NCBI GenBank assembly: GCA_946411205.1
Contig: CAMKDG010000012.1
Coordinates: 1 to 46,958, forward strand
Source: an uncultured Desulfotomaculum sp.
Lineage (GTDB): Bacteria > Bacillota > Desulfotomaculia > Desulfotomaculales > Desulfotomaculaceae
Length of the DNA: 46,958 nt
Direction: 5' to 3'
How positions within the stretch are numbered: position 1 is the stretch's first letter; every line of letters begins with the position of its first letter. Below the pieces are notes generated by a model. It searched no databases and had not been told where the DNA came from. It saw nothing but the letters and a program-made list of their open reading frames with translations. Made by a program: the position numbers and the translations under genes. Below are positions 3,772-41,833 of the stretch, piece after piece.

Positions 3772-5025
3772 CTATGCTCTGCGAATACGGGCACCCAGGC
3801 TGGTCAGTTTTTGTTCCAGGTTGGTATAGCCTCGGTCAACGTATTGAACGTCACTGATCTCTGTTTCACCTGTGGCCATTAAAGCAGCAATCACCAAAGC
3901 TGCACCTGCCCGTAGGTCGGTGGCTTTCACTTTGGCACCCTGCAAGAAGGAAACCCCTTCAATGACCGCCATGCGGCCTTCTACTTTGATGTTGGCACCC
4001 ATGCGTTTAAGTTCATCGGCTACCCGAAAGCGGTTTTCAAAGATATTTTCCACTATAATGCTAGGTCCCGGTACCGTAGACAGGAATGACATCATTTGAG
4101 ACTGCATATCAGTCGGGAAGCCGGGATAGGGCATGGTTTTTATGTCGATATTCTTAGCGGCAAAGTTGCTGGCCTTAATATAGATGGAGTCTTCTCCTAT
4201 TTCTACATCTACATTAGCCTCTCTTAGCTTGGCACTCAGTGGTTCCAGATGACGGGGAATAACATTTTCTAGAAGTACATCGCCCCTGGTGGCTGCAGCC
4301 GCCACCATAAAGGTACCTGCCTCTATCCGGTCGGGTATTACAGAATAGCGGCCACCCTTTAGCACGGGGACTCCTTCGATCTTAATTAAATCCGTGCCTG
4401 CACCGCGCACTTTAGCACCCAGGGCATTAAGGAAGTTGGCTAGGTCAACAATTTCTGGTTCCTTGGCAGCATTTTCGATGATTGTTTGACCTTCGGCCAA
4501 ACAGGCTGCCATCATGATATTCTCCGTAGCCCCCACACTGGGAAAATCCAGGTAAATCATATTGCCACACAGACGACCTGTTTTTCCTTGGATGGAACCT
4601 CTTTCGAGATTCAGTTCCGCTCCCAGAGCCACTAAGCCTTTAAAATGCAAATCCATCGGGCGCACACCAATATTACAACCGCCCGGTAAAGAGACGGATG
4701 CTTTGCCATAACGAGCTAACATCGGCCCTAGCAATAAATTGGAAGCTCGTAACTTCTTTACCAATTCATACGGAGCCTCTTCAACTAACTGATCTGGACT
4801 TTGTAAAGATATTACTTCCTCAGCCAACCGGCTTACTTTGACACCCATAGTTCCCAGAATTTCTAAGACAGTCCGAACATCACTAATATCCGGAACATTT
4901 TCTATGATTACCTCTTCCTCCGCTAATAAAGCACCACATAGAATAGCGAGGGAAGCATTTTTGGCACCACTTATTTTTATTTTTCCCTGGAGCGGTTGTC
5001 CTCCTGCAATGATGAGTTTGCTCAA
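3772..5025 (-). CDS. murA: UDP-N-acetylglucosamine 1-carboxyvinyltransferase (MurA)
   Basis: The 417-residue EPSP-synthase-fold enzyme transfers enolpyruvate from PEP to UDP-GlcNAc, the first committed step of peptidoglycan synthesis, in the cytoplasm. Lys22/Asn23 in the N-terminal KISGAKNA motif and the catalytic Cys117 in PGGCNIGVRP are present, so fosfomycin sensitivity at this residue would be expected. The start is TTG with AGGAGGT 6 bases upstream. Firmicutes often carry two paralogues (MurA and MurZ), and which one this is cannot be decided here. It lies downstream of the membrane protease gene and ends at the terminator at 3717-3750. Confidence 0.95.
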   Translation of the reverse strand: MSKLIIAGGQPLQGKIKISGAKNASLAILCGALLAEEEVIIENVPDISDVRTVLEILGTMGVKVSRLAEEVISLQSPDQLVEEAPYELVKKLRASNLLLGPMLARYGKASVSLPGGCNIGVRPMDLHFKGLVALGAELNLERGSIQGKTGRLCGNMIYLDFPSVGATENIMMAACLAEGQTIIENAAKEPEIVDLANFLNALGAKVRGAGTDLIKIEGVPVLKGGRYSVIPDRIEAGTFMVAAAATRGDVLLENVIPRHLEPLSAKLREANVDVEIGEDSIYIKASNFAAKNIDIKTMPYPGFPTDMQSQMMSFLSTVPGPSIIVENIFENRFRVADELKRMGANIKVEGRMAVIEGVSFLQGAKVKATDLRAGAALVIAALMATGETEISDVQYVDRGYTNLEQKLTSLGARIRRA

Positions 5026-5129
5026 CTGATTGACCTCCTGTAAATAGTGCGCTCCCCGTTACAACATGAATGTATTCGCTAAAATTCTAGTTAATTCCTG
5101 CTTTGTTAGTAAAATCTGGCCAAAAAAGC

Positions 5130-12065: not shown

Positions 12066-12509
12066 TTAATACTTATTGCTTAAATGGTTGTATATAACGA
12101 GTCCAATCATGTATTGAAACACCAAAAGTCCTCCTAAATATAAGATAATCAATCTAGAATTTTTGATAATATCCAAACTGCCCAGGATAGAAAAAAGAAC
12201 TATCGAAACAGATATTACAAGCAACCCAATAATATAAGCATATCTACCAGACTTATCTCGTAATTTAGTCTTCCTTTCATCATTCAGCTCGATAGTTTCA
12301 TTTTCTGTTTTTTCTAGATACTTCGTTCTATTTTCCGGTCTTGTCCAATAATAGTACTTCCACAACATTACCGCTCCACCACAAATACTTCCACTTGCAA
12401 ATCCAAATAGCAGACTCTCCAATTTTGTTTCAAATAACCAACCAATAAGTAAACAAGCAACACCCACTAAAAAATATAATATTCCAACGAACAAGTTATT
12501 TTTTTTCAT
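12066..12509 (-). CDS. four-helix membrane protein paired with an XRE repressor
   Basis: About 147 residues with two helices near the N-terminus (LFVGILYFLVGVACLLIGWL and LLFGFASGSICGGAVMLWKY), a charged cytoplasmic loop rich in Lys/Glu, and two more helices (IIGLLVISVSIVLFSILGSL and LIILYLGGLLVFQYMIGLVI). I do not recognise a named family. The start at 12509 is set by GAGGAG 8 bases upstream and overlaps the end of the XRE gene by 14 bases, so the two are translationally coupled. Firmicutes often carry such XRE/membrane-protein pairs; the function is unknown. Confidence 0.65.
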   Translation of the reverse strand: MKKNNLFVGILYFLVGVACLLIGWLFETKLESLLFGFASGSICGGAVMLWKYYYWTRPENRTKYLEKTENETIELNDERKTKLRDKSGRYAYIIGLLVISVSIVLFSILGSLDIIKNSRLIILYLGGLLVFQYMIGLVIYNHLSNKY

Positions 12510-26694: not shown

Positions 26695-28383
26695 TTATTT
26701 TAAATTATATTTATGGGACATCCGGACAATCGTTGGCTGTGCTACACCAAGAAACGAAGCGGCCTTTCTAGTGCTTTTAAAGTTTTCCAATGCCCAGGCG
26801 ACCATTTCCTTTTCTAATTCTTCCTTTGCCTCTTTTAAACTAGTTAATCCTTTATCTTGCATTGTTTTAAACAAATTCTTCTTCTGAATAAAACTAGGCA
26901 GATGATCTTTATCTATCACGTTTTCCGAGCATGTTAAAACCAATCTTTCAATAAGATTTTCTAATTCTCTAACATTACCGGGCCAATTATATCTCAAAAG
27001 ATAATCCAGAGCAGAGGAACTTATCTTTTTAGTTAGGTTGTATTTTTCATTATTCACCGCTAAAAAATGCATGATTAACGGTGCAATATCTTCGGATCTT
27101 TCCCTTAAAGAAGGAATAGCGATTGGGATAACATTTAATCTATAGTAAAGGTCTTTCCTAAACTTACCTTGCTCAATCATGATTTTCAAATCCTGATTTG
27201 TTGCTGCCAGGATCCTTACATTAATACTAATCTGCTTCATGCCCCCAACACGCATGATAGAATGATTTTGCAATACGTGAAGTAACTTAGCCTGCATTTG
27301 AATGGGAATTTCCCCTATCTCGTCCAGGAAAAGGGTGCCGTTTTCAGCTAATTCAAACATGCCCGGCTTACCATTCTTTTTGGCACCTGTAAAGGAGCCT
27401 TCCTCATAACCAAATAATTCTGATTCCATAAGATTTTCGGGTATTGCACCACAATTAACATTTATAAAAGGTCCCTTACTGCGACCACTGTTTCTATGGA
27501 TAAATCTTGCCAGAACATCCTTACCTACACCGGATTCGCCAAGAATTAATACGGTCGCGTCTGAGTTTGCTGTTTGTAAGGCAAGTTTAAAAACCCCTTC
27601 CATGGATCTGCTCTTTGTAATAACTTCTTTGATATTTGTTTTCTTTGCTTTGCTAAGCTCTTGGTTTTTTACTGAATTATTTTCTTCCAATTCCTTACGA
27701 TACTTGGATAATTCAGTTATATCCCTCACATTAGAGACAATTCGCCATATATTGGCCCCATCAAAAATAGGTACAGCCGAGACCAGTGCTTTTCTTCCTG
27801 TTTTGGTAGTATAAACAATGGTGACTGGTTTTCTTTGCCGTATTACATGAATAGCAGCTGAATCTGAATAAATACCTTGGGCTACTATTTCATAAACTGA
27901 TTTACCAATTAAATCTTCTCTTTTTATCCCAGAAAAATTCTCCCAGGACTTACTTACCCTCAAAGTTATACCCTTCCCATCCATAATCCAAATACCATCA
28001 TGAGAATGCTCTAAAATTGTATCTAACTCTCTCTCCTTCTGTGAAGAATCCTTAAGTTTATTTTTTGTTCTCTCCAATTCTGACACGTCTAAATACATAC
28101 TCATGGCACCAACAATTTCGCCCTGATCCACTACTAGAGTATGTTTTGAAGTTAAATACTTGCCCCCTCTACGTTCGGACCAATTAGCAATGTCTTTACC
28201 CTTCGCCAATACTTCTGTCAAAGGCGACCCCGGAACGATTGAGCCAACTTTTTTGCCAACAGCTTTAGTTGCACTAGTATTAAACAACCTTTCAGCAATT
28301 GAATTTAACTTTAAAACAATTCCCTGTGTATTAACGATAATTATCCCTTCATGCAATAAATCCCACATTTCATTATTTATCAT
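26695..28383 (-). CDS. PAS-domain sigma-54-dependent transcriptional activator
   Basis: The protein of about 562 residues has two PAS domains (about 10-100 and 130-235, the second with [12 protein letters not shown] and RDITELSKY), an AAA+ sigma-54 activation domain (Walker [22 protein letters not shown] in place of GAFTGA, Walker [21 protein letters not shown]) and a C-terminal HTH ([18 protein letters not shown]). The ATG at 28383 is preferred over a GTG at 28398 by ribosome-site spacing. It lies inside the hyp operon between hypE and hypA, recalling fhlA next to E. coli hyp genes, so it likely drives the sigma-54 promoters found in this cluster. The signal sensed by the PAS domains is unknown. 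Confidence 0.9.
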
Positions 28384-28425
28384 AATAATCTCACCCACCT
28401 ATTTGCCCTGAGTAGACTTACCAAA

Positions 28426-33373: not shown

Positions 33374-33565
33374 CTACGCTTCCAATTCTTCCAATTCTTC
33401 CAATTCTTCCAATGAAATGCCATGATAATCACAAATAGTTTTTAATTTTGCAAGAAAAGCCCTTTTTTCTGAGACATCTTTTTTCTCTGCCATAACTTCT
33501 TTCATCCAGTTAACGATATATTTCCTCTGTGTTTCTTTAGAAGCTTCTTTTTGAACGGATTCCAT
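33374..33565 (-). CDS. small hypothetical protein with LEE-repeat tail
   Basis: About 63 residues, highly charged, probably helical, with no transmembrane segment or recognised domain. It ends with LEELEELEELEA encoded by a 9-base tandem repeat. The start at 33565 is supported by GGTGG 7 bases upstream; 33571 and 33598 are alternatives. It directly follows another unknown gene and precedes hypF in the hydrogenase cluster, and lies downstream of a sigma-54 promoter, so an accessory role in hydrogenase expression or assembly is possible but unproven. Confidence 0.5.
   Translation of the reverse strand: MESVQKEASKETQRKYIVNWMKEVMAEKKDVSEKRAFLAKLKTICDYHGISLEELEELEELEA
33380..33413. repeat. 9-base tandem repeat (3.8 copies of TTCCAATTC)
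   Basis: Three perfect units at 33380-33388, 33389-33397 and 33398-33406 plus a partial fourth. In the coding strand it gives Glu-Leu-Glu triplets at the end of the small hypothetical protein. Unit multiples of three keep the frame, so length could vary between strains. Confidence 0.9.
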
Positions 33566-33581
33566 GTACATTCCACCCTTT

Positions 33582-34013
33582 CTAGGATTCACTTTCATTT
33601 ATTTCCGGAATGGCTAATCTCTTCCAAAAATTACTTATTTGCTGCTGTTGCTTCCTTGGAATATCTGCAGTAAAGTTTAGCGGTAATGTTACCGAATAAT
33701 CCAAGTCGTTATTAAGTTTTAAGTTAGGGGTTTCGAAATTAATTACTTCAATTAGTTTACCAAACAATTCTCTTACCTTGTTATCACCAAGGAGTTCAAT
33801 GCTTACCTTTATTCTTTCCATTTCTAGAAAAGCAGGCTCTTTTACCGGGAGTTGTTCGATCCATGCTCTAAATTCTCTAGTATATTCATGACGAAATCTT
33901 ATATTTTTGTATAAAATCTGATCAAAATAGGGTCGGTTGCTACAGAAGACTTCCTTAATCGTTTTATCGGGATATCTCCCCATGCCCATAGCCCTTGAAA
34001 AATACTCATCCAT
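33582..34013 (-). CDS. hypothetical protein of the hydrogenase cluster
   Basis: 143 residues, soluble, charged, with a Pro/Asn-rich middle and no domain that I recognise. A near-perfect ribosome site (AAGGAGGTGAACCT) precedes the ATG, and coding character is clear, so it is a real gene. It is the first gene after the sigma-54 promoter at 34160-34176, followed by the small LEE-tailed gene and then hypF. Its single cysteine and lack of motifs argue against an iron-sulfur or nickel-chaperone role. Function unknown. Confidence 0.7.
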   Translation of the reverse strand: MDEYFSRAMGMGRYPDKTIKEVFCSNRPYFDQILYKNIRFRHEYTREFRAWIEQLPVKEPAFLEMERIKVSIELLGDNKVRELFGKLIEVINFETPNLKLNNDLDYSVTLPLNFTADIPRKQQQQISNFWKRLAIPEINESES

Positions 34014-34159: not shown

Positions 34160-34176
34160 TGCAAGTTTCATGCCCC
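34160..34176 (-). promoter_or_regulatory. sigma-54 (-24/-12) promoter before the unknown genes and hypF
   Basis: The minus strand reads GGGGCATGAAACTTGCA: GG and GC are 10 bases apart, with -24 GGCATG and -12 TTGCA matching the consensus TGGCACG-N4-TTGCA closely. Transcription would start near 34150 and enter the 143-residue gene, its small neighbour and possibly hypFCDE. The sigma-54 activator gene lies in that same block. Confidence 0.7.
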
Positions 34177-34205: not shown

Positions 34206-34222
34206 TTGGCATTGATTTTGCT
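34206..34222 (+). promoter_or_regulatory. divergent sigma-54 promoter reading into a gene-free stretch
   Basis: The plus strand reads TTGGCATTGATTTTGCT with exact GG-N10-GC spacing, matching -24 TTGGCA and -12 TTGCT. It faces away from the minus-strand sigma-54 promoter about 30 bases to the left. No ORF lies downstream before the convergent lctP gene, so the product would be a short non-coding RNA. Confidence 0.6.
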
Positions 34223-34232
34223 TATATTATTA

Positions 34233-34385
34233 GATATAATGAAAATGCTTGAACGCTCTCCCCCAAAAGAGTGTTCAAAAGTAGTCCCGGTCTGGTTTCT
34301 CTCATCCTAACACCATAAGGGAAACCAGACTACCTGTTAGGGTAAATAGACCCCCGGAAAATTTCCGGGGGGTTAGGTATTTTAC
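34233..34385 (+). ncRNA. candidate structured small RNA (hairpin, H-type pseudoknot, terminator-like stem)
   Basis: About 150 bases from the predicted sigma-54 start. Hairpin 1: 34251-34259 with 34268-34276, loop CCCCCAAA. Hairpin 2: 10 perfect pairs, 34290-34299 with 34321-34330, whose 21-base loop contains CCTAACA (34306-34312), complementary to TGTTAGG (34335-34341) just after the stem, giving an H-type pseudoknot. Last is a 10-base GC-rich stem, 34351-34360 with 34362-34371, followed by TATTTT. The segment around 34235-34312 is similar to 36698-36780 in the maturation-protease gene, with 16 identical bases. Strand is inferred from the promoter; a decayed gene copy is the main alternative. 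The remainder of 34014-34400 is the two sigma-54 promoters and AT-rich DNA. Confidence 0.45.
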
Positions 34386-34400
34386 AGGGATTCTATACTA

Positions 34401-36368
34401 TTACATAACCTGGCCTGAACCAGAACTTTCGGATTTTTTTAGATCTATCGTAGATGTATCTCCATCACCGGCGGGACAGAAACATTCTTCTTCTGTCCAC
34501 TGTTTAACCATTTTGATTACACTAATTAAGGTAATCAGCCCAACAATTATGGGTATACCCCAAAGTATAACCGGTGAGGTAGCTCTCTCAACTTGATGAA
34601 TTGTTTCTGATATTACGGGTACCATCCAGGTAAAGACATGAGCTTGTAACATGGAAATTGTCCCAATAAGTACTGTGAATATTACTGACACCCAAACAAC
34701 CCTGCGAATGATCTCCCCTTCAGCGCCAGGCAGATTTACTGATGCGGTAACAATCGCTAAGTCTTGAGGTGCACAGGATTTACCCATAACACCACCGGAA
34801 CTAAGGGTACTGGCGGCCAGCAATCCACTGTGGCCTGATTGTTCTGCGGCAACACAAACCATTTGACCAAATAAAGCATTGGAAGCCGCGTCCGTACCCG
34901 TTAAGAAAACACCCAACAGACCTAGTATAGCGACACTCATAGGAAGCCAAAACCCAGTTTGAGCAAAGGCCATTCCCATTGTATAGGTCATTGCGGAATA
35001 GTTCATTAACTGGGCAATGCCAAGAATGCACAAAATTGTTGCATAGGCCATTGTTAATTGCTTGAGGGTTGATTTAAAACACGTAGTTGCCTTTGAAACA
35101 CCAATTCCTGTCACAAATATTGTAATAATTCCCACAAAGAAAACCAAGGTTCCTCCAATGGTTAGCAACGGCGACGTCCAAATAGCAGTGTATTCTTCTA
35201 CTTTCAATGTCGCTGGCGGTACCTTTGAAATCATTAGGTGTAAATTGGGCCAGTGAATGGTTACGGTACTGAGTTTAGCCCCAATGGTTTTAATTGTAGG
35301 GGAAGCATTCACTGCAGAGATAAAGGCGATCATCAAAAAGTAAGGAGACCAAGCCTTTAGTATTCTTAACGGGGGAATTCTTTCTCCCTCATATTTAGGA
35401 GGGGTATTGGGATCGTCCGTTGGTAATAGCCAAATCTTTTTAGGGTGCCAAAACTTAGTTATTAGTATGGTGACACCTATTGCAGCCAGCGCACCGGAGA
35501 TATCAACAACATACGGGCCAACAGTGTTTGATACGATAAACGCTGTCAATCCGTATGCACAGCCTGCGGCAAGCGGTATCCACCATATCTTTTTATATCC
35601 TTTCCAGCCGGCAAAGAAACAAATTAATACTGAGGCAAAAATGGCTGTTGTTATGGGTGTCTGTCTCCCAATCATGGTAGATAGGTGATTTATGTCAATG
35701 CCGGTAACTGCCTGTAGCACAACCAAGGGGGTTCCTTGGGTTCCGAAAGCACAGGGAGTGGTATCTGATAATAAGCATAACACTGCCGCTGTCATCGGCG
35801 GGAAGCCAATACCAACCATCATGGCTGAGGTTACGGCAATGGGTGCACCAAAGGCTGCGATACCTTCAAGCAGAGTACCAAAGCCAAATATAAGCAACAA
35901 TACTTGTATCCGGCGGTCGTTGCTCACATACCCCAAGGACTTCTTAATAACCTCAAATTCTCCACTTTCTACAAGAAGATTATAGACCCAAACAGCACAG
36001 GTTAACGTCCATAAGATGGGACAAGCTGCCAACATAAAACCAAACAAGGTTGCATTGGATGCCAACCCTATGGGCATATCCCAAACGGCTACTGATAAAA
36101 TTAGCGCAACAACTAACCCCATACTGCAGGAAAAAACAGATGATCTTCTAAAACCAGTTAGGCAGGTAAACATTACAATTAAGGGAAGTGCTGCAACTAA
36201 AGCAGATACGTTAGAACTATTTAGAACGGGAGAGTACTGCTGTGTCCAATGGATGGTTTCTCCCAAGATACCTCCAGAAAAAAAGGCAGTAATTAAAAAA
36301 AACAAAGCAAATAATGCAACCGAGAGTAAGAATGTCTTTTTCTGAGCAGGTCCATGTCCTAATTCCAT
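34401..36368 (-). CDS. L-lactate permease (LctP) family carrier
   Basis: The 655-residue membrane protein has about fourteen helices with family features GFGTLLEGIAAFGAPIAVTS and DTTPCAFGTQGTPLVVLQ in the first half and GTDAASNALFGQMVCVAAEQ plus SSGGVMGKSCAPQDLAIVTA in the second. Typical LctP proteins are about 530-560 residues and take up lactate or glycolate with protons; the extra length comes from an internal loop and a polar C-terminal tail. It is the last gene of the flavoprotein/hydrogenase operon, 34 bases after the protease gene, so it probably imports the organic acid handled by that enzyme system. The actual substrate is unknown. Confidence 0.88.
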   Translation of the reverse strand: MELGHGPAQKKTFLLSVALFALFFLITAFFSGGILGETIHWTQQYSPVLNSSNVSALVAALPLIVMFTCLTGFRRSSVFSCSMGLVVALILSVAVWDMPIGLASNATLFGFMLAACPILWTLTCAVWVYNLLVESGEFEVIKKSLGYVSNDRRIQVLLLIFGFGTLLEGIAAFGAPIAVTSAMMVGIGFPPMTAAVLCLLSDTTPCAFGTQGTPLVVLQAVTGIDINHLSTMIGRQTPITTAIFASVLICFFAGWKGYKKIWWIPLAAGCAYGLTAFIVSNTVGPYVVDISGALAAIGVTILITKFWHPKKIWLLPTDDPNTPPKYEGERIPPLRILKAWSPYFLMIAFISAVNASPTIKTIGAKLSTVTIHWPNLHLMISKVPPATLKVEEYTAIWTSPLLTIGGTLVFFVGIITIFVTGIGVSKATTCFKSTLKQLTMAYATILCILGIAQLMNYSAMTYTMGMAFAQTGFWLPMSVAILGLLGVFLTGTDAASNALFGQMVCVAAEQSGHSGLLAASTLSSGGVMGKSCAPQDLAIVTASVNLPGAEGEIIRRVVWVSVIFTVLIGTISMLQAHVFTWMVPVISETIHQVERATSPVILWGIPIIVGLITLISVIKMVKQWTEEECFCPAGDGDTSTIDLKKSESSGSGQVM

Positions 36369-36402: not shown

Positions 36403-36897
36403 TTAAGGTGCCTTTCTGTTAGCTACCACAGCCAGTATTTGAAAGATTAATCGGATCGTTGGTTCAATGGCAGACTCAACAGCTGGCGACAACCCCGGCT
36501 CGATTTCCTCGGGTATCGATTGTACCTGACAGCCCAAAATACGTACATCAATGCCTTTTCTGAGCTTTAACTCATTTAGAATATTAAGGTCAAGAAATTG
36601 ATGAATGGAAAAATCCCCTCTTTTGTTTTGAGGAATTTTATCGAATTCAATTTCCCTAACTGTACCGGGAACTAATCCCCAGTCCATGGCATCCACTAAT
36701 ATAATCTTTTCTAGCTTGCTCTCCCCCAAAAGAGCGTCCAGAAGTAGTTCCCCAGCACCAGTTCCTGCATCAATCACCTCAACACCCTCAGGAAGCTGGG
36801 CTTTTTTTTGCAAATGTTCTATTACTCCGGGTCCAAAGCCATCATCACCAAATAAAATATTACCGCATCCAATTATACTTACTTGACCCGGATTCAT
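36403..36897 (-). CDS. hydrogenase maturation protease (HyaD/HycI family)
   Basis: The 164-residue endopeptidase trims the C-terminal extension of the nickel-loaded large subunit. The N-terminal nickel-sensing motif IIGCGNILFGDDGFGPGVIE and the central IDAGTGAGELLLDALLGESK, then DAMDWG, are as in the family. It lies 22 bases downstream of the large-subunit gene, whose C-terminus still carries a removable 25-residue tail. A stretch of this gene (36698-36780) has a partial copy in the intergenic RNA candidate at 34235-34312. Confidence 0.92.
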   Translation of the reverse strand: MNPGQVSIIGCGNILFGDDGFGPGVIEHLQKKAQLPEGVEVIDAGTGAGELLLDALLGESKLEKIILVDAMDWGLVPGTVREIEFDKIPQNKRGDFSIHQFLDLNILNELKLRKGIDVRILGCQVQSIPEEIEPGLSPAVESAIEPTIRLIFQILAVVANRKAP

Positions 36898-36919: not shown

Positions 36920-38362
36920 TTAATTTCCCAAGGTCTGTACTACTTGACCTTTACTATCTACAACTGCAACCCTAACAGCCACCCTGCCGTCAATTTTATG
37001 GGTCGCACAACTGTAGCAAGGATCATAGGCCCGGATAGCCATTTCAATTTTATTTAGGCCATCTTCATCGCAAACGCCGTCCTTAATCACTTCACGGGCG
37101 GTACGGAAGGCGGAAATATTAATCGCAGCATTGTTATGGGTTGTACCGACAATAAGATTTACTCGGGTAAGTAGACCGTTGTCATCCGTTTGATAATCAT
37201 GTATTAATGTTCCTCTGGGTGCTTCAACAACCCCAACTCCACGACCAGCACATGGTTTTACGCTTTCTCTGACATGGGTCCCGGTAATTGCATCATCCTC
37301 AAGTAACTCTACAGCTCTTTCTGCCGCATAGACTGCCTCAATTAGACGCGCCCAATGGTAGAGGAAATTATGTTGAGCAACTCCACCTACTTCTTTACGG
37401 AAATCAATGAGTTCTTTTTGGGCTAAAGGTGTCGGTATGCTATCACATACATTCAACCTTGCCAGTGAGTTTGTACGATAAACCCCAACCGGCTGATCCG
37501 GATCCATAGAAAGTTTCCCTACAGATTTATCATAGGGGAATTTCATGTAGGTCCAATCCTCGGTATGTTCGCTAATATAATCCAGGTAATCAGCTGGTTC
37601 GAATTCTTCACATTCACCATTTAATTTGAGTAACCTGAGCCTACCATCATAAAAATTCAATTCTCCGTCTTTTGAAACCATCCCCAAAAAGCCGGTCTTT
37701 AAGGTAGGAGAATTTTTTATTTGTGGTAATAGATTCATAAATACTTTATCTTTGGCAAAGTCCAAGGAAAATTGGACAAATTCCAGGCAATCGCCAGCCA
37801 TTGAGCGAAGTTCTTTCCGTTGTTCTTCACTAATTGACTTGCTAAAACCGCCAGGAACTGCAACATCTGGATGAATAGCTTTACCTGCTATTATTTCTGT
37901 CATTTTCTGGGCTACGTGACGAATACGTGCAATTTTTTGAACCAATATGGGATGTTTATCCGCGAGACCCATAATATTTCTCACCAAATAATCCGTCCCT
38001 GGATCACACAAAAAATCTGCCCCTGCTAAAAAGAAGAAATGTAACAAATGGCTATGGACAAAGTGCGCGCTATAAGCAAGTTCTCTTATTTTTTTGGCTG
38101 TCTCTGGAATTTGCACCCCAAATACTGCGTCCGCAGCTTTAGCCGCCGCCAAATGATGTGCCCATGGACATACGCCACAAATTCTAGTAACGATTCTTGG
38201 CATTTCTTCAACTGGGCGACCTAGGCAAAATTTTTCAAAGCCCCTTATTTCAACCACCTGAACTTTAGTATCAGAGACTCTTCCTGCATCATCCAATTGA
38301 ACAGTTACTCTCGCATGCCCCTCCACTCTTGAGACTGGTTGTATTGTAATTGTTTTTCCCAC
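36920..38362 (-). CDS. [NiFe]-hydrogenase large subunit, cytoplasmic Mvh-type
   Basis: The 480-residue catalytic subunit has the N-terminal nickel ligands RICGVC (Cys62, Cys65) and C-terminal DPCYSCATH (Cys449, Cys452), followed by 25 residues that the adjacent protease should remove. It begins TITIQPVSRVEGHARV, as in group 3 F420-non-reducing (MvhA-like) hydrogenases. It catalyses reversible H2 cleavage. No Tat signal exists on its partner, so the enzyme is cytosolic. It starts 11 bases after the small-subunit gene. No mvhD or hdr gene follows, unlike the usual Mvh-Hdr arrangement. Confidence 0.93.
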   Translation of the reverse strand: MGKTITIQPVSRVEGHARVTVQLDDAGRVSDTKVQVVEIRGFEKFCLGRPVEEMPRIVTRICGVCPWAHHLAAAKAADAVFGVQIPETAKKIRELAYSAHFVHSHLLHFFFLAGADFLCDPGTDYLVRNIMGLADKHPILVQKIARIRHVAQKMTEIIAGKAIHPDVAVPGGFSKSISEEQRKELRSMAGDCLEFVQFSLDFAKDKVFMNLLPQIKNSPTLKTGFLGMVSKDGELNFYDGRLRLLKLNGECEEFEPADYLDYISEHTEDWTYMKFPYDKSVGKLSMDPDQPVGVYRTNSLARLNVCDSIPTPLAQKELIDFRKEVGGVAQHNFLYHWARLIEAVYAAERAVELLEDDAITGTHVRESVKPCAGRGVGVVEAPRGTLIHDYQTDDNGLLTRVNLIVGTTHNNAAINISAFRTAREVIKDGVCDEDGLNKIEMAIRAYDPCYSCATHKIDGRVAVRVAVVDSKGQVVQTLGN

Positions 38363-38373
38363 ATCAGACCCTC

Positions 38374-39300
38374 CTAACGAATCGGCCGCAAATTATTATG
38401 TGCCCCTGTAAACCAGTTAAACGCTGCCCGGCGATCATGAACATCCCGAAGCGTATAGCCATATACAGCCAAGGAGCCAAGTAATTCCGCACGCGGATTC
38501 TCTTCAATCCTCCGAGGACCCATACAACCACGGCAAGGCATATCCATTTTCATGCATACACCACCACAACCACTTCTGGTCGCAGCCCCCATGCAAAAAT
38601 AACCTTGTTCAAATAAACAGCGATCTTCCAGTTCAACCGGCTCTAATGGACGGATCATCTCTGGAAAAGATAGGCCTCTATCGCTAAAAACGGTTCTTTT
38701 TTCCTTTGTCTTGGGACATTCGTTGCAAACTGTGTCGTTAGGCAATTCAAAATCTCTTCCTTCAAGAACACACTTGATAGCTTCTACAAACATGCTCACC
38801 GGAGGCGGACAACCCGGCAGATAAATATCTACTTCCATCACTTCGTTGAGTGAAATTACTCTATTGGTTACCTTGGGCAGATGATATTTTTCTGCACCCG
38901 CATCAGCAGGGCAGATACCTTCCTTTACAGAATCTAGTGGCATTACATTAGCGATCGAGTGTATGCCGCCCATACAAGCACAAGTCCCATTTGCTATGAC
39001 AATGTCACAATTTTCTCTTACTGCACGGGCTACCTCTAAGTTTTCTTCTGTACGTATGGAACCCGAAAGTATGCCAATATCTGCTCTCGGTATTTTTACT
39101 TCTAAATCATTACTAAAGGGATCAAAATGTTTAGAGTCCATGATTATTGGTGCATGAATAATTTCAATTTGTTTCAAAAGAGTAAGAAGTTCTTCACCAA
39201 GATCAAGAATCGATACCTCACAACCTTCACAACCGGAAAGTGCTTCGATTACTACCTTTTTCAAAATTAACACCCCAATCTCAGAGTTGTTAACTGTCAT
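38374..39300 (-). CDS. [NiFe]-hydrogenase small subunit, cytoplasmic Mvh-type
   Basis: The 308-residue electron-transfer subunit has proximal-cluster cysteines in SGCEGCEVS (Cys24, Cys27), NGTCACMGG and PGCPPP. Its C-terminal part has the cysteines for further clusters: CNECPKTKE, FCMGAATRSGCGGVCMKMDM and PCRGCMGP. There is no twin-arginine leader, so it is cytosolic. The ATG at 39300 has GGAGGGG 5 bases upstream, but that site is buried in a 14-base hairpin; a TTG at 39264 with GGGGTG upstream would give an N-terminus more like relatives. Confidence 0.92.
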   Translation of the reverse strand: MTVNNSEIGVLILKKVVIEALSGCEGCEVSILDLGEELLTLLKQIEIIHAPIIMDSKHFDPFSNDLEVKIPRADIGILSGSIRTEENLEVARAVRENCDIVIANGTCACMGGIHSIANVMPLDSVKEGICPADAGAEKYHLPKVTNRVISLNEVMEVDIYLPGCPPPVSMFVEAIKCVLEGRDFELPNDTVCNECPKTKEKRTVFSDRGLSFPEMIRPLEPVELEDRCLFEQGYFCMGAATRSGCGGVCMKMDMPCRGCMGPRRIEENPRAELLGSLAVYGYTLRDVHDRRAAFNWFTGAHNNLRPIR

Positions 39301-39301
39301 C

Positions 39302-39330
39302 AGTACCCCTCCGTTTAACGGAGGGGTACT
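39302..39330 (-). promoter_or_regulatory. hairpin sequestering the ribosome site of the hydrogenase small subunit
   Basis: AGTACCCCTCCGTT and its complement form a 14-base stem with a single unpaired base in the loop (39302-39315 with 39317-39330). On the minus strand the 3' arm contains GGAGGGG, the ribosome site of the ATG at 39300. No T-tract follows, so it is not a terminator; translational control or mRNA processing is more likely. Confidence 0.65.
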
Positions 39331-39342
39331 TGATACAAAAAA

Positions 39343-39570
39343 TTATCTGATTAAATAAGGTACTGTCTCCAATTCAATGGCATCTAACTGGCATACAAAT
39401 TTACAAACATCACAGTACCAGCAATCATCACGATAGGCCATGTAAGGAAATCCTTGGTTGTCAAGTCTAAGTACGTCCCTTGGGCAATAGTCCACACAAG
39501 TTCCACAGCTGGCACATTTAGATTTATCTACTTTAACCCATTCATATTTTTTGCAATCAAAGCGTTCCAT
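39343..39570 (-). CDS. two-[4Fe-4S] ferredoxin partner of the flavoprotein
   Basis: The 75-residue protein has CASCGTCVDYCPRDVLRLD and CWYCDVCKFVCQLDAIELE, two CX2CX2-3CX3C-type cluster motifs, resembling a minimal AprB-like ferredoxin without its C-terminal tail. It starts 2 bases after the flavoprotein stop, so the two are surely co-translated and probably form a complex. It is the obvious electron relay between the flavin and the hydrogenase encoded next. Confidence 0.88.
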   Translation of the reverse strand: MERFDCKKYEWVKVDKSKCASCGTCVDYCPRDVLRLDNQGFPYMAYRDDCWYCDVCKFVCQLDAIELETVPYLIR

Positions 39571-39572
39571 GT

Positions 39573-41417
39573 TTAATCCTCCTTCTTGACTGTCATTCTC
39601 TTAGGAATATCCATACCTTCTCTAGAAACCTTTTCAGTGATCCAAGGATCATTGTAATCATTGTCCGGATGGACATAGCCTTTACCAATTTCTAGCTTAA
39701 GCTCCGGATATTCATATTCCAATCTAGTGGGATAATCCCATTTGTACTTGGGAACATCCTTGGAGGATACTTCCATTTCACCAGTTGCCAGGTTCTTCTT
39801 AACTACTACTTGTTTGCCATCCCATTTCGGATCTACTTTCGGGTGGGTTAAACGATAGTGGCTAAGTCCCCAACGGCTTTCAGTACGATATAAGGATGCT
39901 TTAACAGCCATCTCTGCGCAATCGATCATACTATTAATTTCAGTAACTTTGATCAGATCGTGGAAATCACAAACTTTGATATTAGGTACATCTTCACGGC
40001 GCATTCTATCAACCCACCAAAGCATCTTGTTGTACAGCGGATCGCTCTTGGGTGGAGTCATATACTGGCTGATCTTGCCACGAATCTTAATTTCCACTTG
40101 CTCAACAGGCAAACCATCTGGACGATCAAGCGCAACTCTTAATTCTTTCCACAATTTATCAACATCTATATCTAGTTTAGGAGCTTTCGCTTTTGCAGCA
40201 TACTCGGCAGCTGTTTTCCCAGCTATTCCACCGAATACAAAGGCACCTGTTAAGTATTGGTGAGGTACCGCTGCACAGTCACCAGCAGCAAATAGGCCCG
40301 GTACACTTGTTTCAGCATCCTTATTTACCCAAATACCTGACATACTATGTCCACTGCACAGAGTGATTTCTTCCATACCTTGTTCAACGGAATCCCAGCA
40401 ACGATAGTTTTCATTACGTTGCTTATGGAATTGACCGCGTACCGTACGTTCAGTACCCCAAAGAATTTTTTCCAGACCCTGAATGGTATCTTCAGGCAGG
40501 TGATCCAACTTCAGATATACAGGACCACGGCCTTCAGTAAATTCACGCCAAACAGCTAGGAACATATCACCAGACCAGTAACCATGGCTCCAATATTTTT
40601 CGCCTAATGCGTTAATACCGTAACCACCTCTAGGAATTACAACATAGCCACAGGCAGGGCCATTAAAGTCTTTCATTAGCAGGTTGGTTTGGAAACATTC
40701 CATGTTAACCATTTCGGCTCCCGCATGATAGGCCAGGGCGTATCCATCACCAGTATTGCCGGGGAATTCATAAATACCGCTTAGGTAACCGTCTCTCGGC
40801 ATCCCAAATCTACCTGCACAACCGGCAGTAAGAACAACAGCAGGGGCGCTGATTAAGAAGTGTTCACCAGTTCTAATATCGAAGGCAAATACACCAGTTA
40901 CCTTACCTTCGGCAGTAAAAAGTTTTACTGTGGCAGTTCTATCCAAAACTGTGCAACCTAATCTTCTTACTTCACGGGCCAAAGCACGCTTAATGTCCTC
41001 GCCGTCCATGGCCAGATATAAGGGCTTTTGGGTAGGATGTAAGTAGTTGCATTTATAGTTTCCGTTTTCATCCACCGGGAATAGATCACCGGGTTCACGT
41101 CCTGTAAATTCTTCAAGATCCTTTATTACTTCAATCGATTTTTCGCCTAAAACATAGGCTGCCTCCTGATCGATGATACCTTCAGATACTTTAGTAAGAG
41201 CTTCCACTACATCTTCCGGAGTACCATATCCAGGAACAGAAACAATGTTTAATGCATCCATACCACGTCCGATTGCACCAGATGTTTCAATAGGTCCCTT
41301 ATCTAGTACTACTACCCGGGCTTTAGGATTTGCAGTTTTGGCTTTGATTGCTGCAAAGGTTCCTGCGCTGCCGCCTCCAACAATAATTACATCTGCATCA
41401 ATTTTACGGTATGCCAC
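39573..41417 (-). CDS. AprA/fumarate-reductase-superfamily flavoprotein
   Basis: The 614-residue FAD protein has the dinucleotide motif VIIVGGGSAGTFAAIKAKTA at about residues 9-28, ADGED-type substructure, a middle capping domain and the C-terminal FAD motif VPGLFAAGDCAAVPHQYLTG. It resembles the alpha subunit of adenylylsulfate reductase in length and layout, and the PHQYLTGAF site matches the AprA substrate histidine region. By eye, the region where AprA has MENRFVPAR here reads MECFQTNLL, so the arginine believed to bind sulfate in AprA is missing. It is therefore probably not an APS reductase but a reductase or dehydrogenase for another substrate. GTG start with AGGAGG. It leads the hydrogenase operon behind a sigma-54 promoter. 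Confidence 0.8.
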   Translation of the reverse strand: MAYRKIDADVIIVGGGSAGTFAAIKAKTANPKARVVVLDKGPIETSGAIGRGMDALNIVSVPGYGTPEDVVEALTKVSEGIIDQEAAYVLGEKSIEVIKDLEEFTGREPGDLFPVDENGNYKCNYLHPTQKPLYLAMDGEDIKRALAREVRRLGCTVLDRTATVKLFTAEGKVTGVFAFDIRTGEHFLISAPAVVLTAGCAGRFGMPRDGYLSGIYEFPGNTGDGYALAYHAGAEMVNMECFQTNLLMKDFNGPACGYVVIPRGGYGINALGEKYWSHGYWSGDMFLAVWREFTEGRGPVYLKLDHLPEDTIQGLEKILWGTERTVRGQFHKQRNENYRCWDSVEQGMEEITLCSGHSMSGIWVNKDAETSVPGLFAAGDCAAVPHQYLTGAFVFGGIAGKTAAEYAAKAKAPKLDIDVDKLWKELRVALDRPDGLPVEQVEIKIRGKISQYMTPPKSDPLYNKMLWWVDRMRREDVPNIKVCDFHDLIKVTEINSMIDCAEMAVKASLYRTESRWGLSHYRLTHPKVDPKWDGKQVVVKKNLATGEMEVSSKDVPKYKWDYPTRLEYEYPELKLEIGKGYVHPDNDYNDPWITEKVSREGMDIPKRMTVKKED

Positions 41418-41541
41418 GATTCATCCTCCTTTATTTATTACTTTTACTAAATGTCAAGTTATAGCTTTTTTATAGCCACCTCCCCTAAAAAATAATTAAA
41501 TCACAATGTAAGATACTTATCCCTTGATGCCAAATCATAAA

Positions 41542-41558
41542 TGCAAATAAAATGCCAA
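41542..41558 (-). promoter_or_regulatory. sigma-54 promoter of the flavoprotein/hydrogenase operon
   Basis: The minus strand reads TTGGCATTTTATTTGCA with exact GG-N10-GC spacing (-24 TTGGCA, -12 TTGCA). The start would be near 41531, leaving about a 110-base leader. A 12-base perfect inverted repeat overlaps its upstream side. The gap 41418-42092 has no gene; it holds this promoter, the inverted repeats listed here and the rpsR terminator. Confidence 0.75.
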
Positions 41559-41583
41559 TTGTCTTTAAAGCGACAATTGGCAT
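41552..41583. terminator. 12-base inverted repeat overlapping the sigma-54 promoter
   Basis: ATGCCAATTGTC (41552-41563) and its exact complement (41572-41583) flank an 8-base loop. On the minus strand the stem is followed by TTTATTTG, so it can act as a terminator insulating the promoter from upstream transcription; it also contains the -24 element, so it may instead be a regulatory dyad. Confidence 0.55.
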
Positions 41584-41833
41584 AAAGAAAATATTATGTT
41601 CTTTTTAAGATTTTCGACCTAACCGATTGCAGTAATGTCCAACTTTACAATTAAAAGTAACCCTTTTTGATATTAATTTATCATTTAAACTCCATTTCTC
41701 ACGATTTAACTGTCTTCCTTTAGAGGGTACACATACTAATTTCGACAATATAAATTGTCACTAAGAATTTAACTTTTGATAAAGATACATATGTTAATCA
41801 CTTACAGCTTAAAGGTGGTATATCAGTGTTGTT

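Follow-up and report, generated by a model that had tools for sequence, protein, structure and literature searches.

A predicted small RNA gene (34233 to 34389, plus strand) lies beyond the 3' end of a hydrogenase operon in this Desulforamulus genome. There is good support for reading it as a structured RNA driven by sigma-54: an exact promoter with no gene downstream, a fold z score of -5.9, slower divergence than its surroundings, and the absence of an Rfam family. We lean, if only slightly, toward the further view that it is an antisense small RNA of about 150 nucleotides, duplicated from the hydrogenase maturation protease gene hycI, that lowers the output of hycI and of the downstream lctP while the hydrogenase regulon is on. 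If the duplicated-hycI reading is true, this is a bacterial regulator born of its own target. The window, meaning the whole stretch of DNA that was analyzed, is a 46,958-base contig (C12 of genome G000), and the closest relative compared was D. aeronauticus DSM 10349 (G005, NZ_FRAR01000016). A preliminary description of this DNA had already proposed the sigma-54-driven structured RNA, which stands, and had taken a pseudoknot as its hallmark, which is not supported; it mentioned neither the antisense match to hycI, nor the activator gene, nor the hydrogenase operon's own sigma-54 promoter.

The element does sit, as had been described, between the hydrogenase operon and the genes leading toward hypF, on the plus strand in the gap between lctP and two small ORFs. 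Read on the minus strand from 41417 to 34401, the operon encodes an FAD flavoprotein, a 4Fe-4S protein, the hydrogenase small and large subunits (these four at 36920 to 41417), a hycI/frhD-type maturation protease (36403 to 36897; PF01750, TIGR00072) and, as its last gene, the lactate permease LctP (34401 to 36368; PF02652). Beyond lctP come the two small ORFs, hypF, hypD, hypE, a gene for a PAS-PAS sigma-54 activator, or enhancer-binding protein (26695 to 28398, minus strand; PF00158, PrdR-like), hypA and hypB. The two small ORFs (143 and 74 amino acids; 33374 to 34013), which separate the RNA from hypF, are conserved in D. aeronauticus and gave no Pfam or NCBIfam match. The large subunit gene (36920 to 38362) has no in-frame stop here; in many order-level relatives (for example, L055 to L061) it contains a single internal TGA, the pattern expected of a selenocysteine enzyme. 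The first gene of the operon (39573 to 41417) encodes a fumarate-reductase/APS-reductase-like flavoprotein, and horizontal transfer is indicated because its counterpart in a Syntrophobacteraceae metagenome-assembled genome (MAG; L066) is 80% identical and lies in the same gene order. The transporter in the slot after hycI varies by cluster among a lactate permease, a citrate/sulfate-type symporter and an ABC transporter (34401 to 36368 in the window, 3343 to 4902 in L067, and 6947 to 10421 in L066).

The promoter had been described as a -24/-12 element at 34206 to 34222 on the plus strand that points into ORF-free DNA, and both points hold. The sequence, TTGGCATTGATTTTGCT, has GG-N10-GC within TTGGCAY-N5-TTGCW, fits the clostridial sigma-54 consensus TTGGCATNNNNNTTGCT given in PMC6615313 at every specified base, and is identical base for base in D. 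aeronauticus; transcription would start near 34233. Genome-wide, the pattern YTGGCAYN5TTGCW occurs at 18 sites, against 1 for a reversed control. Elsewhere in the genome, exact sites in intergenic DNA sit before genes; the site at 34206 sits before none, the plus strand having no ORF of at least 70 amino acids there and only a 23-codon reading frame that is frameshifted in D. aeronauticus. A leader peptide beginning at the ATG at 34239 was rejected, given the lack of an evident ribosome site and the frameshift in D. aeronauticus. A sigma-A-like TTGATT-17-TATAAT (34212 to 34240) overlaps the sigma-54 site. Its TATAAT lies within an ATATAAT that recurs at the matching place in hycI, so descent could account for it. 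The sigma-54 reading is preferred but not proven. The sole other exact site within the window is the promoter of the hydrogenase operon itself (41542 to 41558, minus strand), 125 bp before the operon. A divergent near-consensus site, GGGGCATGAAACTTGCA (34160 to 34176, minus strand), conserved in D. aeronauticus, faces the 143-amino-acid ORF and the hyp genes. The activator gene lies nearby in the hyp cluster; no shared binding motif for its product was found near 34206, and GACAATN4ATTGTC, sought near the RNA promoter, was absent.

The plus strand from 34232 to 34390 folds at -64.5 kcal/mol, compared with -41.3 ± 3.9 kcal/mol for shuffled sequences (z = -5.9), and the minus strand of the same stretch gives a z score of -4.0. 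Hairpin 1 (34251 to 34276) was found as described, with nine pairs, including one G.U, and the loop CCCCCAAA. Hairpin 2 (34289 to 34331), which had been given 10 pairs, can form up to 14 including G.U pairs, and its loop holds CCUAACACC. The GC stem that had been placed before a T run is indeed present (34351 to 34371), but on the plus strand T residues follow only after about 8 nucleotides. On the minus strand TCTATTT directly adjoins the stem, which lies 30 nucleotides beyond the lctP stop, and for these reasons the stem is primarily the terminator of the lctP/hydrogenase operon; for the RNA it may be a weak terminator.

Identity with D. aeronauticus is 95.6% over the RNA, compared with 87% for the flanking intergenic DNA and 94% for lctP, and 59 bases (34225 to 34283) are invariant between the two genomes. 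Two species differences in hairpin 2, G/A at 34289 and G/A at 34320, convert G.U to A-U pairs on the plus strand and would leave A.C mismatches on the minus strand, which is suggestive of pairing in the plus-strand RNA, the events being few. The element had been reported as unlike any known RNA family, and Rfam at gathering and relaxed thresholds likewise returned no family (best score, E of 0.32 and 18.5 bits against a threshold of 80). Of the conservation among relatives that the preliminary description had called for, one part was seen: promoter and RNA are kept in D. aeronauticus and in no other searched genome. A covariance model (R1) run against 60 relatives, 113 genomes of the class and 398 of the phylum gave no true matches beyond the window genome and D. 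aeronauticus; of three weak matches (G045, G069 and G192), those in G045 and G069 are due chiefly to the generic GC terminator stem. With the stems confined to two close species, covariation among relatives cannot confirm them, and a covariation count from a four-row alignment (A4) was set aside because that alignment misplaces hairpin 2.

These hairpins could also be read as DNA, that is, as palindromes bound by the activator that serves the divergent minus-strand promoter (34176 to 34160). They lie about 115 to 160 bp upstream of the start of that promoter, a usual distance for activator sites, and the divergent site is conserved. Yet their sequence does not recur ahead of the hydrogenase promoter, where different palindromes are present (GACAATTTATATTGTC and ATGCCAATTGTC-N8-GACAATTGGCAT), the arms of the two hairpins are unlike, and mismatches are tolerated as G.U on the plus RNA strand only. 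We regard this reading as highly improbable.

The relation to hycI emerged from a DNA search of the element against the genome, which gave a single other match, at 36718 to 36751 within hycI, with 30 of 34 bases identical (88%; E of about 3e-5); the same was true in D. aeronauticus. Within the window the match has an E value of 6.7e-7, and the best of the other intergenic regions reached 0.008 (20 intergenic regions). hycI lies 2.4 kb from the RNA gene in the adjacent operon, and since it is encoded on the minus strand, a plus-strand RNA would be antisense to its mRNA through the segment 34255 to 34288. hycI carries a matching hairpin, GCTCT-CCCCCAAA-AGAGC, and its mRNA folds the complementary local hairpin around UUUGGGGG. 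Compared with the hycI hairpin, that of the RNA has gained four bases and undergone two C-to-T changes, which bring it to nine pairs; two of the four seed differences from hycI thus keep a G.U pair with hycI mRNA while lengthening hairpin 1. Weak similarity probably continues beyond the 34 nucleotides, through the hairpin-2 loop (CCT-AACACC versus CCTCAACACC) to about 34325, and hycI also has a hairpin where the hairpin-2 similarity falls. Under one scoring, this extension has a P of 0.0007 in D. aeronauticus and 0.01 in the window; that range holds against a genomic control for two of the three scorings used, and strict scoring gives a P of 0.09 for the window copy.

The predicted duplex between RNA and hycI reaches -82 kcal/mol, whereas duplexes with the remainder of the operon mRNA come to -29.7 ± 6.8 kcal/mol. 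Taken by itself, the loop of hairpin 2 has a pairing energy of -15.3 kcal/mol with the loop in hycI (P = 0.002). In these models both loops of the RNA can kiss hycI mRNA. The complementarity to this specific mRNA is thus extended and exceeds chance, which would place the RNA in the broad base-pairing antisense kind. The complementarity falls in the middle of hycI rather than at its start codon, and stable predicted hairpins in both the RNA and the hycI mRNA sequester much of it. Between the two species hycI has 0 changes in 71 nucleotides, which is not significant; the gene is slow to evolve between them, so maintenance of the complementarity is not proven.

The segment 34255 to 34288 surely derives from the interior of hycI, and the larger stretch from about 34234 to 34325 probably does. 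hycI is the likely source and the RNA the copy, because the HycI relative of a Clostridia MAG (L067) encodes the same peptide region. At 27 other hycI loci, no comparable internal hycI copy was found elsewhere in the locus (best E of 0.001, versus 8e-9 here). A functionless, decayed duplicate of hycI, with a promoter that drives nothing useful, would display the match equally well; the copy keeps the strand orientation of hycI and is a fragment only. We think this very unlikely in the face of an evolution slower than that of the flanking intergenic DNA, the 59 invariant bases, the strength of the fold and the exact promoter that has been kept.

The hycI relation also bears on the pseudoknot. 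The loop of hairpin 2 (34306 to 34312; CCUAACA in the RNA, CCTAACA in the DNA) is, as described, exactly complementary to 34335 to 34341 (TGTTAGG); it is also complementary to hycI mRNA. The pairing with TGTTAGG had been called unlikely by chance, which is only modestly true, the chance being about 1% given the composition of loop and tail. As the defining feature of the element, an H-type pseudoknot is not supported: in pseudoknot geometry only 3 nucleotides would span the 10- to 14-bp hairpin-2 stem, and a nested fold with an outer stem that rivals TGTTAGG is more stable (-64.5 kcal/mol versus -56.0 kcal/mol with the pseudoknot bases kept free plus -7.3 kcal/mol for the pairing). A pseudoknot is possible in these models, but the loop is better explained by its pairing with hycI mRNA, at the energy and P value given above.

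We propose the following course of events for an antisense RNA derived from hycI. A piece of hycI would have been copied to a site beyond the operon, keeping its strand, and transcription would have come to run from the other strand. The plus strand would be transcribed by sigma-54 RNA polymerase, probably with the PAS-type activator from the hyp cluster. The exposed loop CCCCCAAA would meet the complementary UUUGGGGG hairpin of hycI mRNA, with a second contact possible via the loop of hairpin 2, and the contact would extend to a duplex of at least 30 pairs within the coding region. That duplex may block ribosomes or attract RNase III, leaving less maturation protease and less lactate permease. 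Because the two promoters are of the same kind, the RNA would be a brake turned on together with the hydrogenase operon.

A functional sigma-54-dependent small RNA might instead have a protein partner or different targets; its similarity to hycI would then show no more than where the sequence came from. Fold and promoter are conserved, as this would predict. C-rich RNA loops can bind ribosome-binding sites, and the C-rich loop CUCCCCCA resembles such loops by analogy; in its 5' leader the hydrogenase operon carries UUUUAGGGGAG, which differs from the complement of the loop at a single position. We nevertheless judge it unlikely, as the sole strong DNA match genome-wide is to hycI, whose operon is the neighboring one and has a promoter of the same type.

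Backward-pointing sigma-54 sites occur in other hydrogenase clusters as well. In the related cluster of the Clostridia MAG (L067), an exact site points back from between the last transporter gene and hypF, with a weaker divergent site toward hypF (4991 on the minus strand and 5013 on the plus strand, region 4975 to 5029), the same arrangement as 34206 plus and 34176 minus in the window. In a different hydrogenase cluster (L200), an exact site at 12389 to 12405 lies just past hycI and points back. This recurrence is notable because exact sites are rare, at about 18 per genome, but it was seen among about 100 scanned loci; we treat such sites at the 3' ends of hydrogenase operons as a lead toward a wider pattern. 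Convergent sigma-54 transcription might itself be the functional event, the transcript entering the 3' end of the operon and the RNA structure and hycI copy being secondary. The weak plus-strand terminator and the sites at L067 and L200 agree with this, but the window RNA folds well and shows selective conservation, and neither the L067 nor the L200 transcript shows unusual structure, so we hold it to be quite unlikely. A more speculative thought, and a rather doubtful one, is that several Clostridia direct 3'-end sigma-54 antisense transcription against the maturation protease or last genes, and that Desulforamulus, in which a permease gene intervenes, kept this control by way of a duplicated hycI piece that became a stand-alone small RNA.

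Among known systems, the plasmid antisense RNAs CopA/CopT and RNAI/RNAII act through kissing loops and likewise have complementary hairpins with loops able to start a long duplex. They belong to plasmid copy-control regions, whereas the present RNA lies 2.4 kb from its putative target, in a hydrogenase cluster, and is a diverged partial copy. Qrr1-5, CrcZ and GlmY/GlmZ share the -24/-12 promoter ahead of a short structured RNA gene, but these proteobacterial sigma-54-dependent RNAs work via Hfq or by titrating a protein, and none is a copy of its target. Some plant microRNAs arose by inverted duplication of target genes and so resemble a regulator seemingly made from a duplicated target piece; the present case is bacterial, without Dicer or Argonaute, and the duplicate would be read from the opposite strand. 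The sigma-54 regulons of clostridia share the consensus and commonly have PAS-type activators, and a word search of the main text describing them (PMC6615313) found neither a small RNA nor a [NiFe] hydrogenase regulon. The origins of bacterial small RNAs are usually hard to trace. Here, source gene, target and two diverged copies can be aligned, which makes it possible to trace how a gene fragment would have become a structured antisense RNA, and such an origin would be unusual; the literature searched, with incomplete coverage, described no comparable target-derived antisense RNA. Nor did it report RNA-level control of hydrogenase maturation in sulfate-reducing Firmicutes, a layer that the proposed RNA would add, if true.

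The DNA around the hydrogenase promoter has features of its own. A perfect 12-bp inverted repeat, ATGCCAATTGTC-N8-GACAATTGGCAT, overlaps its -24 box (41538 to 41570), and the palindrome GACAATTTATATTGTC lies about 200 bp upstream (41744 to 41759). D. aeronauticus keeps the repeat arms and the palindrome while adjacent DNA varies, and a similar repeat overlaps a sigma-54 site elsewhere in the window genome (G000:C8:7829-7845), before a gene resembling a membrane sensor.
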